Positions 42,055-51,561 of a DNA stretch of 64,000 bases are shown piece by piece. Every line of letters starts with the position of its first letter. Within the stretch, counting starts at the first letter, position 1. Origin of the DNA: Methanobrevibacter ruminantium M1 (GTDB lineage Archaea; Methanobacteriota; Methanobacteria; Methanobacteriales; Methanobacteriaceae); NCBI RefSeq assembly GCF_000024185.1, contig NC_013790.1:682001-746000 (forward strand). Direction: 5' to 3'. The translations under genes were made by a program, and so were the position numbers. The notes under the pieces are model-generated. The model was given only the letters and a program-made list of their open reading frames with translations. It had not been told where the DNA came from and did not search any database.

Positions 42055-42333
42055 TTATTCTTCTTCTTCAGTTACATCTACACAGATTGCTTCTTTTTGA
42101 GCAGCTTTTGCATCAGTTTGAATGTCTTCTGCATTGTCTTTAATGTCTTGAATGGATTCTTCTAAGTCGCTTTTGCAAGTTAGAACTTTAGCCATTCCTT
42201 TTGCAGCGTAATCTTTAGTGGTTTGGGATTTTAAAATTTTTGCCCCTACAATTGCAGTTGCAATTCCTCCTACGAAAAGTAAAGTGTGTTTGTTTTCATA
42301 CATTTTGTCTACAATTTCATGTCTGTCTACCAT
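42055..42333 (-). CDS. DUF6110-like small protein
   Basis: A 92-residue protein. A single hydrophobic N-terminal helix (TLLFVGGIATAIVGAKIL) is followed by a Lys/Asp/Glu-rich helical tail ending in an acidic cluster with one Cys (EAICVDVTEEEE). It resembles DUF6110 proteins that accompany P-type ATPases. CAGGTGAT precedes the ATG. A TTGGTATACCTAAA box lies 88 bases upstream (42421-42434), suggesting control by the same regulator as feoAB. The role is probably as a helper of the ATPase. Confidence 0.65.
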   Translation of the reverse strand: MVDRHEIVDKMYENKHTLLFVGGIATAIVGAKILKSQTTKDYAAKGMAKVLTCKSDLEESIQDIKDNAEDIQTDAKAAQKEAICVDVTEEEE

Positions 42334-42938
42334 ATAATCACCTGTTTTTTAATTGTTAATTCTTTTGGAAATTTTTTAGAATTACAATAAATAATTTTTA
42401 TTTAATTTTATTTAAAAGTTTTGGTATACCTAAAAGATAATTATAATACTAATATTATTATTTTTGAATATAAAAATATTATATTAATTTATAGATTATT
42501 ATTTATATTATAATTATAATAAGAGTTATTTTATTTCTTTTTATTAGTTTCTTTTTTTCCAGCATTCGTCCTTTATTCTGGAAAAAGAAGGGTTCCTTGA
42601 CCTTTTTTATTAATGTCTTGTATTATGGGGGGTATACTATTAGGTAAACCTAAACTTTATATACTAGTAGGGAGTAAAATAATATTAGGTTTTAGGTATG
42701 CCTAATTAGGTTTTTATAGTAATCTTTTTATTTTCATTTAATCAACAATCCAATATATTTTTAAAAACCAATGCAATTTATTTTAAAAATATCTAATTTT
42801 TAAAGAAAATTTAAAAATTTTAATTAAACTACAAATACCTCAAAATATTGAGATTCCAATAAACCTTAATTTAGGTATACCTAAATTTCCTACTTCTTGG
42901 ATATTATTTTTATATTATGATTTTTGCGAGGTTATAAA
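42334..42938. promoter_or_regulatory. iron-type control region between DUF6110 and feoA
   Basis: 605 bases with four palindromic boxes: TTGGTATACCTAAA 42421-42434; ATTAGGTAAACCTAAA 42639-42654; TTTAGGTATGCCTAAT 42691-42706; TTTAGGTATACCTAAA 42870-42885. Between the second and third lies TTTATATA at 42656-42663 (box-TATA-box, as in the ncRNA promoters). The last stands upstream of a TATA-like TTTTTATATTA near 42908 and the feoA ATG. A DtxR-family repressor binding with Fe2+ or Mn2+ is the likely reader. Confidence 0.7.
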
Positions 42939-47877: not shown

Positions 47878-48345
47878 GTTTGTTCAGACTATAAAATTTA
47901 TTAATTTAAGGTTCCATTAAATTTTAAACTTTTTAAAAAGCATTAATTTAAGGTTTTATCAATTTTAAAGTTTTAAAAAGCTTTAATTTAAGTTTTTATC
48001 AAATCTAAACTTTTAAAGACTTTTTAAAGGGGCATTTTGAATTTAACCGAACTTTAAATATTAGAAAAAAATCTTAGATATTAATTATTTTTATAATTTT
48101 TATCTAAGATCACCTCTTTTCTATTTCTAAAGATTTAAAGTATTTAAGTTAAGTTAAATGGGTAATTTAAGTTTTATCTTTTTAAGTTAGGTTAAATGGG
48201 TAATTTAAGTTTTGTCTATTTAAGTTAAGTTAAATATTTTTATTTGAAAATCTAATATTTAATTAGGAATTTTAATTTTTAATTAAATATAATTTTAAAA
48301 AACTGATTTTTACTAATATTAAAAAACTAATTTTAAGTGATTATT
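47878..48345. repeat. cbiN-cbiQ spacer with two tandem repeat families
   Basis: 468 bases. A 40-42 base unit TTAATTTAAGGTTTTATCAA recurs at 47901, 47943 and 47983. A 38-base unit TTTAAGTTAAGTTAAATGGG recurs at 48143, 48181 and 48219. No gene is seen. The cbiQ leader has AAGTGAT before ATG. Confidence 0.7.
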
Positions 48346-49176
48346 ATGGCAATAGAAGAAGTTAGAAATTTGGAAGTGATCGCTTCTAAGGACACTATCA
48401 TTCATAATTTGGAAGGTAGGGTTAAGCTTATTGCCATCTTATTAATAATCGTTTTCTGTGTTTTTTCAGATAGGCTAATAGTTCCACTTGTATTGGAAAT
48501 ATTCTTGCTCATTGTAATGTATCTGGCTGAATTGTCCTTTAAGGACAGCTTTAAAAGAATAGCTCTTCTTTTGCCATTCGGTGGTTTTGTTATCGCTTTC
48601 CAGCCATTCATCCACCCTGGAAATATCATTTGGCAAGGTCCTTATCCTTGGTTGTTTATAACAGACACTGGTTTAAATTGGACAGTTCTCTTATTTGCTA
48701 GATTAATCGTCTGTTTGACAGCTATTGTCATCCTTTCATCTACCTCACCAATGCAGGAAGTTGTTCAATCATTTAGAAAGCTTGGAATGCCAAGAGATCT
48801 TGCTATGATTTTAACAATTATGGTCAGATTCCTATTTATCTTTGTAGATGAATTAAGGGACATCAGACAGTCAATGAAGTCTAGAAACTTTGATCCTTTC
48901 AATAAGAAGATTCCGTATAAATGGAGAGTCAAGCAGGTGGGATATAGCATAGCGATGATGTTTTTAAAGGCATATGAAAAGGGAGAAACCATTTATTTAA
49001 GTATGGCCAGCAGATGCTTCTCAGACAATTCCAGATTATATCATGCCAAGACTATAATTGGAAAGCATGAGTATATATTTTTAGCTTGTGTTATAGGCAT
49101 TGTCATTGTTTTAGAACTGGTTGTATTGTTCTATTCTGGCAATTTGGATTATTTAGGCGTTTCTTTATCTTTATAA
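48346..49176 (+). CDS. cbiQ: ECF transporter transmembrane component CbiQ
   Basis: A 276-residue T component with five helices. The two coupling motifs that contact the ATPases are seen as SMKSRNF (about residue 182) and LSMASRCF (about 216). ATG 48346 is chosen over GTG 48337. The cbiO ATPase that normally follows is absent: the next 1 kb is non-coding, so the ATPase must come from elsewhere or the locus was rearranged. Confidence 0.9.
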   Translation: MAIEEVRNLEVIASKDTIIHNLEGRVKLIAILLIIVFCVFSDRLIVPLVLEIFLLIVMYLAELSFKDSFKRIALLLPFGGFVIAFQPFIHPGNIIWQGPYPWLFITDTGLNWTVLLFARLIVCLTAIVILSSTSPMQEVVQSFRKLGMPRDLAMILTIMVRFLFIFVDELRDIRQSMKSRNFDPFNKKIPYKWRVKQVGYSIAMMFLKAYEKGETIYLSMASRCFSDNSRLYHAKTIIGKHEYIFLACVIGIVIVLELVVLFYSGNLDYLGVSLSL

Positions 49177-49238
49177 TCATTATAATTATTTAATGGATTA
49201 ATTATTATTTCATATCCAATTCTATTTTTTATATCATT

Positions 49239-49327
49239 AAAAATTTAGGTATGCCTAAAAATTTAGAAAGATTTATATACTATGAAGAACAACCTATAAT
49301 TAACAATAAGTTTAGGTATACCTAAAT
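49239..49327 (+). promoter_or_regulatory. box-TATA-box promoter module A
   Basis: TTTAGGTATGCCTAAA 49244-49259, TTTATATA 49272-49279, then TTTAGGTATACCTAAA 49311-49326. It is almost identical over 84 bases to module B at 49748-49836 and resembles the tRNA-Leu promoter around 52984. By normal archaeal spacing transcription would start near 49302, so the second box covers the first bases of the RNA. Confidence 0.8.
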
Positions 49328-49628
49328 ATTATTGTTTATAAAAATATAATCATGTTGTTTATTAATTGGTTAATAATAATCTAAAGGCTTATAAAATTAC
49401 ACATTATGTCTCAAATATTGTCCTCCTATCTTTAGGTTATTATTAACTTTAAATGAATTCACAAAGCATCATTTTCTTCTCATGCTCTCTTTTCTTTTGC
49501 GGGGGTTCATTGATTAATAAGAACATTTTGATATTTTAAGACCATTTAATAACACTTAAGTTATAAACAATCTCCAAAAAATACATAGTAACTCTAATCC
49601 CTGAGTTTACTATGTATAATCTCTTTTT
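49302..49628 (+). ncRNA. predicted iron-regulated non-coding RNA A
   Basis: Predicted from a promoter module and a 3' hairpin; no ORF longer than about 10 codons with a ribosome binding site is present. TACATAGTAACTC (49582-49594) pairs with GAGTTTACTATGTA (49603-49616), followed by T5. Shares CATCATTTTCTTCT (49467-49480) with RNA B; also has TCCTCC near 49421, able to pair with a ribosome binding site. Length about 327 nt, start by inference. Whether the RNA is made is untested. Confidence 0.55.
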
Positions 49629-49747
49629 ACTATGTATGATTTCTTTTTAATCAGTTTTTTTTTAAATTATTTTAAATTTTTATTCTTATTTTTTTTTTTT
49701 CAATTGATCCACATTATCTCATTTATCATCTTATCCAGATTTCCAAT

Positions 49748-49836
49748 AAAATTTTAGGCATACCTAAAAATTTAGAAAGATTTATATACTATGAAGAACA
49801 ACCTATAATTAACAATAAATTTAGGCATACCTAAAT
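49748..49836 (+). promoter_or_regulatory. box-TATA-box promoter module B
   Basis: TTTAGGCATACCTAAA 49753-49768, TTTATATA 49781-49788, TTTAGGCATACCTAAA 49820-49835. Spacing of the parts equals that of module A (67 bases from box to box), and the sequence in between differs at one base. Predicted transcription start near 49811. Confidence 0.8.
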
Positions 49837-50138
49837 TATTGTGATATTGAATAAAAATCTGTAATAATCTTGTTAATGATAAGTTCTTTAATTCAAGTAA
49901 AATTGTACAAGAATTGATTTAATCATTTATTTTCTTGAATTAAGAATTTATTATTAATTGTTTAGTTAAATGAGTTTTACATAAAACACATCATTTTCTT
50001 CTGCACATTTAATCGCTCTTTTCTAATGTAAGATTCAGGGTCCAACTAAAAAAGATTATTCTTCAATATTTAAGTAAATAATTCTTTATTATTTGCCATC
50101 TTGAAATCATTCATAGCATTGCTATGAATTCTTTTTTT
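49811..50138 (+). ncRNA. predicted iron-regulated non-coding RNA B
   Basis: Same design as RNA A, downstream of module B. Shares the segment ATTATTAA ... TAAATGA ... CATCATTTTCTTCT (49989-50002) and a GCTCTTTTCT-like stretch after it, but most of the rest has diverged. Ends with ATTCATAGC-ATT-GCTATGAAT (50109-50129) followed by T7. Length about 328 nt, nearly equal to RNA A. No coding frame. Expression untested. Confidence 0.55.
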
Positions 50139-50211
50139 CTTTTTTTATAGCTTTATTGATTTAGCGATTTTAAAATCTGTTTTTATAAAAAATAGTTATT
50201 GATATCTTCTT

Positions 50212-51561
50212 TTAATAGATTCTTATGCCTTTATCTTTTAATATAACTGCAAAATAGATAAAAGCACTTATAAAGAAGTAAGCTAAAATCTGTATGTCCA
50301 ATATTCCAGTTTCAACACCTACAATGGAATAGGTTAAAATCAAGCCATAAAGGGCTATGTAAAAAGAGTTTTCAGTGATTTTAACTATTTTATATCCAGT
50401 TCCTAAAAGGAATCCAAGCAGGCACATCTCCACTGCAACCCCAAGTTTTCCGAAATCCACTAGCATCTGTCCTAGCAATGTAGGGGTTACAGTAACCTCT
50501 GTTCTCCAAGCTATCAGTTTGCCCACCATCATTCTAGGTCCAAGATCGCTTCCAGGCATGGCGCTTGCTATCATCTTTCCATGCATTAGTCCGAAATTCC
50601 CTGAAATATAATTCAGTAGGTTCAATACATGCATTGTAAAGTTTGCCCTTGAGTTTAAGGTGGAGAATATATTTGTATTTGAGCTTATTGCAAGCTCATT
50701 CAATGATCTTAAATATCCAATTCCAATGATGGCACATACTCCAAGCAGGGCACCTAAAATGACCTCCCAAACTGATAGTATTTTACCATAATATCCTATT
50801 ATAATCATCATAAGTAAAATGGCAATGATTGGGGTTCTATATTGGAGTGTAAGGACAGTTCCAATTCCAATTGCAGTTAAAACCAAGAATCTGAATCTTG
50901 TTTGGCTGCGGCTGATTTCATTATTCTTGTACTGGTTTAGATAATGTGAAGCCATAAGTCCGATACCTGGAATTATTAAAAATACAGGCATTGTAAATGC
51001 TGGCTTAAGTGAATATCTTAATGAGGACTTTAGTATTGGCAGCCCTCCAACGGAGGCAATGCTTAAAAACAAAAAGACAATTCCAATTAAGCTAAGGCAG
51101 AATCCTATTGAATATACATCGTAGGAATTAAATAAGGGAATTTGCTTGCTTTTATCAGTCTTTGATTCTTTATTGTCGGTATTAGTTTCATCATTTAATT
51201 GATTTAATTGATTATTCAAAATAAATCTTGGAAATATTATTGCACCAATAAAAAAGCTTAGAAAAGCAATGATTATAGTGGTCTGCAAATCCCTTGGGAC
51301 CGGATCAGTTGCAAGAAGTATAAAAAGAGTGAATGTGACTAAAACAATAAGGGGTGAAAATATCTCTTCCTTTAAGATCTTACTCTTATTTACAATTGAT
51401 AGGAATCTTTCGCTAGGGTATAAGCCCTTAAAATAACTGTTGACCCATTGATTTTCAATAAATTCCAATATATTGAAAATGATTGTAAATAAAAGGGACT
51501 CTCTTAGTATTTTTTCTATATTTCTAGTTATTGTGCTAGTTATAGAATATATTAAGCTCAT
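50212..51561 (-). CDS. oligosaccharide repeat unit polymerase-like membrane protein
   Basis: A 449-residue protein with twelve or so transmembrane helices of the Wzy/O-antigen polymerase-like type (RFLVLTAIGIGTVLTLQYRTPIIAILLM in the centre, ALYGLILTYSIVGVETGILD near the end). A hydrophilic loop at about residues 118-140 is Asn/Asp/Lys-rich. Probably polymerizes surface polysaccharide or pseudomurein-associated glycan. It converges on the predicted RNA B. The DUF4330 gene lies 65 bases upstream on the same strand. Confidence 0.75.
   Translation of the reverse strand: MSLIYSITSTITRNIEKILRESLLFTIIFNILEFIENQWVNSYFKGLYPSERFLSIVNKSKILKEEIFSPLIVLVTFTLFILLATDPVPRDLQTTIIIAFLSFFIGAIIFPRFILNNQLNQLNDETNTDNKESKTDKSKQIPLFNSYDVYSIGFCLSLIGIVFLFLSIASVGGLPILKSSLRYSLKPAFTMPVFLIIPGIGLMASHYLNQYKNNEISRSQTRFRFLVLTAIGIGTVLTLQYRTPIIAILLMMIIIGYYGKILSVWEVILGALLGVCAIIGIGYLRSLNELAISSNTNIFSTLNSRANFTMHVLNLLNYISGNFGLMHGKMIASAMPGSDLGPRMMVGKLIAWRTEVTVTPTLLGQMLVDFGKLGVAVEMCLLGFLLGTGYKIVKITENSFYIALYGLILTYSIVGVETGILDIQILAYFFISAFIYFAVILKDKGIRIY

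Follow-up and report, generated by a model that had tools for sequence, protein, structure and literature searches.

The intergenic region downstream of cbiQ in Methanobrevibacter ruminantium M1 holds what we consider, with a probability of roughly 78%, to be two paralogous trans-acting small RNAs (sRNAs) of an archaeal iron-sparing response, whose transcription, response to iron and repressive action we infer. The sequence-level support consists of the promoters, a regulon of shared palindromic boxes, conservation within the genus, covariation, the absence of a conserved open reading frame (ORF) and a conserved complementarity to one mRNA. Judged by its sequence, the locus holds two genuine non-coding RNA genes that are conserved as a pair and very probably iron-regulated.

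The analysis was based on a 64,000-nucleotide stretch of the chromosome (NC_013790.1, positions 682,001 to 746,000; hereafter the window), and the main features are collected in Table 1. Between cbiQ (48343-49176) and a convergent membrane-protein gene (50212-51561), no conserved gene is present over about 1,030 bp. This region contains two promoter modules of the same design, 509 bp apart, as a preliminary description of the locus had claimed for elements of 84 bases; the modules are in fact 93-bp direct repeats with 94% identity. In both modules, the palindrome TTTAGGNNNNCCTAAA forms a box on either side of the TATA element, and palindromes flanking the TATA element and the start site are the geometry expected of a repressor. 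The modules were near-invariant in alignments of relatives across the genus. The likeness to the tRNA-Leu promoter (CCTTTATATATTATGAAGTTCAACA), also pointed out earlier, is real. From the predicted start to the hairpin and T-run, each RNA would measure about 328 nt, in agreement with the earlier estimates of about 327 and 328 nt. The possibility that these transcripts are leaders of the downstream gene was rejected because gene 50212-51561 runs convergent to them.

Table 1. Features of the tandem sRNA locus and of genes sharing its promoter type (positions are those of the window unless a contig is given)
Feature	Position	Strand	Description
Box-TATA-box and further perfect box before feoA	42639..42885	+	Boxes (imperfect and perfect) at 42639, 42691 and 42870
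Promoter module A	49235..49327	+	Box, BRE/TATA TTTATATA at 49272-49279, predicted start ~49302, second box at about +10 to +25; perfect boxes at 49244 and 49311
sRNA A	49302..49629	+	~328 nt, non-coding, predicted
Central hairpin, sRNA A	49369..49447	+	Consensus CTTCCTCCCTTT, CCTCC-containing loop, 7 of 17 pairs compensated
Seed CATCATTTTCTTCT, sRNA A	49467..49480	+	Complement is the ferredoxin ribosome-binding site
Second shared motif CAATCTCCAAA, sRNA A	49568..49578	+	Shine-Dalgarno-complementary, just 5' of the terminator; predicted unpaired 0.81
Terminator hairpin and T-rich tail, sRNA A	49576..49629	+	From sequence, alignment and covariation
Promoter module B	49744..49836	+	Same design as module A, TATA TTTATATA at 49781-49788, predicted start ~49811; perfect boxes at 49753 and 49820
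sRNA B	49811..50138	+	~328 nt, non-coding, predicted
Seed CATCATTTTCTTCT, sRNA B	49989..50002	+	Exact copy of the sRNA A seed
Terminator hairpin TTCATAGC..GCTATGAA and T-run, sRNA B	50104..50142	+	From sequence, alignment and covariation
Box-TATA-box and ORF of a very basic 32-aa protein	G000:C1:1321409-1321690 (L048:3010-3300)		Protein sequence (M)GRSKSGICGKKQIKPNKRERKRDPKVVSFRR / MGRSKSGICGKKQIKPNKRERKRDPKVVSFRR

The two RNAs share a seed, CATCATTTTCTTCT, whose only exact occurrences in the window are at 49467 and 49989; a single additional exact copy was found when both strands of the genome were considered. The accessible motif CAUCAUUUUCUUCU is kept in the RNAs. Structure prediction gave the seed an unpaired value of 0.77 in sRNA A (0.41 for the whole RNA) and 0.87 in sRNA B (0.36 for the whole RNA), which ranks the seeds with the most accessible segments of each RNA. 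The shared seed had been recognized in the preliminary description, which took it to be the sole transcribed element in common; this part did not hold, as a second motif with the consensus CAAYCUCCAAA is also common to both RNAs, directly before the terminator stem. The RNA B of relatives carries CAACCTCCAAA at this position, and the motif has degenerated in the window's own RNA B. In addition, the central hairpin of sRNA A displays the loop CUUCCUCCC.

Constraint at the RNA level was evaluated by covariation against shuffled and slid controls. The consensus structure of RNA A had 98% of cells paired and 9 pairs changed on both sides, values reached by none of 500 shuffles, with slid controls giving 35-54% and at most 3 pairs. 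For RNA B, 95% of cells were paired and 5 pairs were changed on both sides; 16 of 500 shuffles reached 5 pairs, and slid controls gave 35-46%. RNA-level covariation is thus clear in RNA A and weaker in RNA B. No ORF was conserved in either RNA among the five species examined for each, so that a small ORF conserved in both transcripts, which the preliminary description had named as evidence against its reading, did not appear in this sample. With their own promoters and terminators and no ORF conserved in this sample, the two RNAs show what is expected of the general class of trans-acting base-pairing sRNAs. Neither RNA matched an Rfam family at the gathering score, with two tRNAs as the only matches in the window; homology to PrrF, RyhB, FsrA or IsrR was likewise not found at this score, for the families present in Rfam.

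BLAST detected the complete locus or a part of it in at least 14 of 18 genomes of the same genus, and a more diverged tandem pair was present in addition in G013. By BLAST alone, the RNAs were not detected in other genera, nor in G001, G014 and G017. Among the loci examined, the pair lies after cbiQ, and in G013 after cbiO. Public relatives matched by pattern were all labelled Methanobrevibacter, including M. olleyae. The alignments displayed an almost invariant ATTAACAATAA region and a 5' hairpin formed from the transcribed box, with diverged spacers, and the motifs common to RNAs A and B were ACAUCAUUUUCUUCUG, usually followed by AAUCGCUCUC, and CAAYCUCCAAA. Furthermore, a third paralog was found in G013 (G013:C19, ~217 kb; L229, 216400-218600, minus strand), about 16 kb from the tandem pair, with the same promoter, CAATCTCCAAA and a terminator whose sequence is of the same type, and without the ferredoxin seed. 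In this genome CAATCTCCAAA is kept in all three paralogs, and RNA A has lost the seed while the RNA itself persists. Since the third paralog has the motif without the seed, CAAYCUCCAAA may have marked the sRNA family earlier than the seed did. In another genus of the Methanobacteriaceae, contig G023:C57 (L242, reverse complement 100-1200) carries tandem box-TATA-box promoters about 620 bp apart, which precede AT-rich sequence with hairpins and without large ORFs; the layout is the same and the sequence unrelated, and these promoters are possibly those of an independent or strongly diverged sRNA pair.

A search for the seed complement, as proposed in the preliminary description, returned one conserved match, at the ribosome-binding site of a ferredoxin gene. 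This was a pattern search covering close matches to the full 14-mer seed complement rather than all translation starts. Each of the 12 same-genus genomes searched contained the complement, AGAAGAAAAUGGUG (one G-U pair) or AGAAGAAAATGGTG, a single time, and the reversed pattern was almost absent in the same search. In 10 of these genomes the site is located five or six nucleotides upstream of the AUG of a gene that encodes a 63-aa 2x[4Fe-4S] ferredoxin; in the remaining two, both 64-68% complete, it is located elsewhere. The ferredoxin leaders of G012, G013 and G016 also contain the site. Altogether it was kept in 13 of the 14 sRNA-bearing genomes with a readable leader (G000, G002, G004-G013 and G016), counts which, the species being related, are not those of independent events. 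Several species combine a conserved seed, predicted to be accessible, with its complement at the translation start of a distant mRNA, the exception being G015, which has sRNA B and whose ferredoxin leader no longer contains the site. The target gene sits between eno and rpsB in the window's genome.

The site spans the ferredoxin ribosome-binding site, and the duplex would cover the Shine-Dalgarno sequence GGUG. Eleven anchored leaders were identical from the first to the last paired base and varied just upstream, so that the 5' edge of leader conservation coincides with the 5' edge of pairing; as the leader contains the ribosome-binding site, part of this conservation may serve translation itself. 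In G001 and G017, which belong to the same genus and have no detected sRNA, the leader keeps ATGGTG and not AGAAGAA, and the ferredoxin leaders of other genera differ. The predicted energy of the seed duplex was -19.8 to -20.4 kcal/mol in sRNA-bearing genomes, in contrast to -7.1 to -9.5 kcal/mol in G001 and G017. Duplex energies of the full-length RNAs were dominated by AU-rich pairing, and the ferredoxin leader performed only moderately better than shuffled leaders (18 of 500 and 15 of 500 as low). The 2x[4Fe-4S] ferredoxin mRNA is a strong and specific candidate target. As is typical of iron-sparing sRNAs, the target mRNA would encode an iron-containing protein, an assignment made by complementarity only.

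The ferredoxin was the one well-conserved target found in the seed-pattern search, and two further genes were considered. The leader of a DUF1894 gene (L052:2026 region), located between DUF1890-like and methionine-synthase-like genes, contains the only exact seed complement outside the sRNAs in the window's genome. The complementarity extends over 14 nt in G000 and G005 and 13 nt in G008, and is shorter or absent in others; because it is so patchy among relatives, this gene is doubtful as a second target. Relatives of a 360-aa FdhA-like protein (L186:1501-2580) have the Shine-Dalgarno context AAATTTTGGAGATAG, which in several species matches the complement of the second sRNA motif over 10-11 nt. 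The fdhA-like gene was not retained as a target of CAAYCUCCAAA, since TTTGGAGRTTG matches unrelated places as well as the Shine-Dalgarno sequence in several species, and G022, which has no detected sRNA, carries a leader of this kind too.

The distribution of the box was assessed over the whole 2.94-Mb genome, where 10 perfect copies of TTTAGGNNNNCCTAAA were counted, 4 of them at the sRNA locus, and the reversed control pattern gave none. The correspondence with boxes before feoAB, noted in the preliminary description, was confirmed by the boxes before feoA (Table 1). The other perfect boxes lie before feoA, a 32-codon ORF and an ABC transporter, and upstream of the eha and frh hydrogenase operons; a pair 54 bp apart constitutes a second box-TATA-box, before the 32-codon ORF. 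Near-perfect boxes precede a second feoB (1 mismatch), a CopZ/CopA-like pair and a methyltransferase. Product names in this regulon were read from sequence, and the identities of FeoA and FeoB were checked and confirmed in Pfam. Moreover, feoB with clustered boxes was also found in G017, of the same genus and with no detected sRNAs, and in G022, of another genus. Among the box positions in the window, none lies before cbiM. Because the boxes accompany feo genes and none precedes cbiM, the operators shared with iron uptake genes make iron the best guess for the signal; it is called iron mainly because feoA has a box-TATA-box and a further box of the same regulon. The form of the palindrome and its feo company suggest that the box-binding regulator would most likely be of the DtxR family.

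Two further observations concern this regulon. The frh box (L050:3045) and the eha box (L049:3020) are both perfect, and the frh box lies upstream of an apparent TATA box, a position which suggests that it would suit activation rather than repression. A gene for a DUF6110 protein (42055-42333, minus strand) is divergent from feoA and near a near-perfect box at 42419; it probably belongs to the feoA regulon.

The 32-codon ORF was found behind a box pair, with a good Shine-Dalgarno sequence, in 12 genomes of the genus. In the 11 ORFs of equal length, variable sites were distributed 5/5/19 by codon position and 15 codons varied only synonymously, and for this reason the ORF is taken, from its substitution pattern, to encode a real protein. 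No Pfam family matched it. In Bacillus subtilis, the small basic iron-regulon proteins FbpA-C assist an iron-sparing sRNA (PMC7430163). The analogy with FbpB makes the archaeal protein a candidate RNA chaperone, which is suggestive only.

Together with iron as the signal, we infer transcription of both RNAs, DtxR as the regulator, the direction of regulation and a translational block, which would combine into the following mechanism. Under iron sufficiency, a regulator loaded with metal, most likely a DtxR-family protein, would occupy the palindromes flanking the TATA element and start site and keep the sRNA genes off, and the same regulator would keep feoAB off together with them. When iron falls, both RNAs would be made; in each of them, a 5' hairpin, structured spacers and a terminator would form, while C/U-rich stretches would stay single-stranded and exposed. 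The seed ACAUCAUUUUCUUCU would then pair over 14-16 bp with AGAAGAAAAUGGUG(U), covering GGUG five or six nucleotides before the AUG, and ferredoxin translation would be blocked and iron spared. In addition, the CAAYCUCCAAA motif and the CCUCC loop of RNA A appear suited to mask further ribosome-binding sites.

Other explanations of the locus were also weighed. It is unlikely, if credible, that base-pairing sRNAs are present and the box reads another metal (nickel, cobalt or manganese) or the redox state. In its favour, the locus adjoins cbiMNQ, which encode a cobalt/nickel transporter, and the [NiFe] hydrogenase operons frh and eha are likewise preceded by boxes; against it, the closest box-TATA-box match in the window is before feoA, the second feoB lies behind a near-perfect box, cbiM has no box, and the conserved target, an iron-sulfur protein, contains neither Ni nor Co. 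We also regard as unlikely an action of the seed through a protein, as a binding or processing site, with the ferredoxin complementarity arising by coincidence from a conserved purine-rich ribosome-binding site. Such coincidence would fit the fact that the leader block is itself a ribosome-binding site, as well as the persistence of G013 RNA A without the seed; however, each genome has a single site, which with few exceptions lies at the same gene, leaders without a detected sRNA retain GGTG and not AGAAGAA, and conservation and pairing share their 5' edge.

Very little probability was assigned to DNA-level elements, for example in replication or chromosome organisation, or to unstable by-products of strong promoters. 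Although the DNA is AT-rich and flanked by palindromic boxes, and the promoters resemble a tRNA promoter, this explanation was rejected in view of compensatory stem changes beyond the slid and shuffled controls in RNA A (weaker in RNA B), conserved unpaired motifs, terminators, and the same boxes at feoA and other genes. That the transcripts encode small conserved peptides is hardly conceivable: the same promoter type does drive a real 32-aa protein elsewhere, but the ORFs here differ in place, frame and sequence among the five species per RNA, with none conserved, and the alignment gaps are not multiples of three, so that this explanation was rejected as well.

As putative iron-sparing sRNAs, the two RNAs can be compared with several known systems. 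PrrF1 and PrrF2 of Pseudomonas aeruginosa are reportedly arranged in tandem and are said to be Fur- and Hfq-dependent RNAs of about 110 nt. The likeness would lie in duplicated, iron-repressed paralogs that share a pairing core (PMC9410917), and the sequence is unrelated to that of the archaeal RNAs. The comparison with PrrF1/PrrF2 drawn in the preliminary description is a fair functional analogy; as regards C-rich motifs directed at Shine-Dalgarno sequences, FsrA and IsrR are the nearer counterparts. IsrR of Staphylococcus aureus is a Fur-repressed iron-sparing sRNA; it would resemble the archaeal RNAs in being iron-controlled, in coming from an AT-rich genome, in having C-rich single strands that form loops or adjoin stems, and in pairing with the Shine-Dalgarno and start region of iron-enzyme mRNAs (PMC9410917). 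Unlike them, it is a single gene with a bacterial promoter, Fur and other targets, and no sequence similarity was noticed. FsrA of B. subtilis is iron-repressed, as the archaeal RNAs would be, with a C-rich motif for the Shine-Dalgarno sequence and the small basic regulon proteins FbpA, FbpB and FbpC (PMC7430163), whereas it is one 84-nt RNA under Fur; the link of the archaeal 32-aa protein to the archaeal sRNAs is a parallel only. The archaeal RNAs appear analogous, not homologous, to PrrF, FsrA and IsrR, homology to which was not detected in Rfam. In Methanosarcina mazei, sRNA154, sRNA162 and sRNA41 are archaeal intergenic trans-acting sRNAs, and masking of ribosome-binding sites was proposed for sRNA41; they differ in being nitrogen-regulated, in belonging to another methanogen order and in not being reported for iron (PMC5867862, PMC3510493).

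No report of an archaeal iron-sparing sRNA was found in the literature searched, and the system would, as far as we found, be the first proposed in Archaea. In bacteria, iron-sparing sRNAs have come to light in repeated, independent instances. A wider archaeal iron-sparing RNA system independent of that of bacteria, with two to three sRNA paralogs, a ferredoxin target, the 32-aa protein as chaperone and a tandem pair in a second genus, is a tentative and on the whole doubtful extension. The case is directly testable because it offers a specific 14-16-bp interaction and a candidate protein partner, and because relatives in which no sRNA was detected provide a natural comparison. Few cells are as rich in iron as methanogens, which depend on ferredoxins, so that a switch lowering ferredoxin in times of iron shortage would connect the iron supply of the rumen to methane metabolism.
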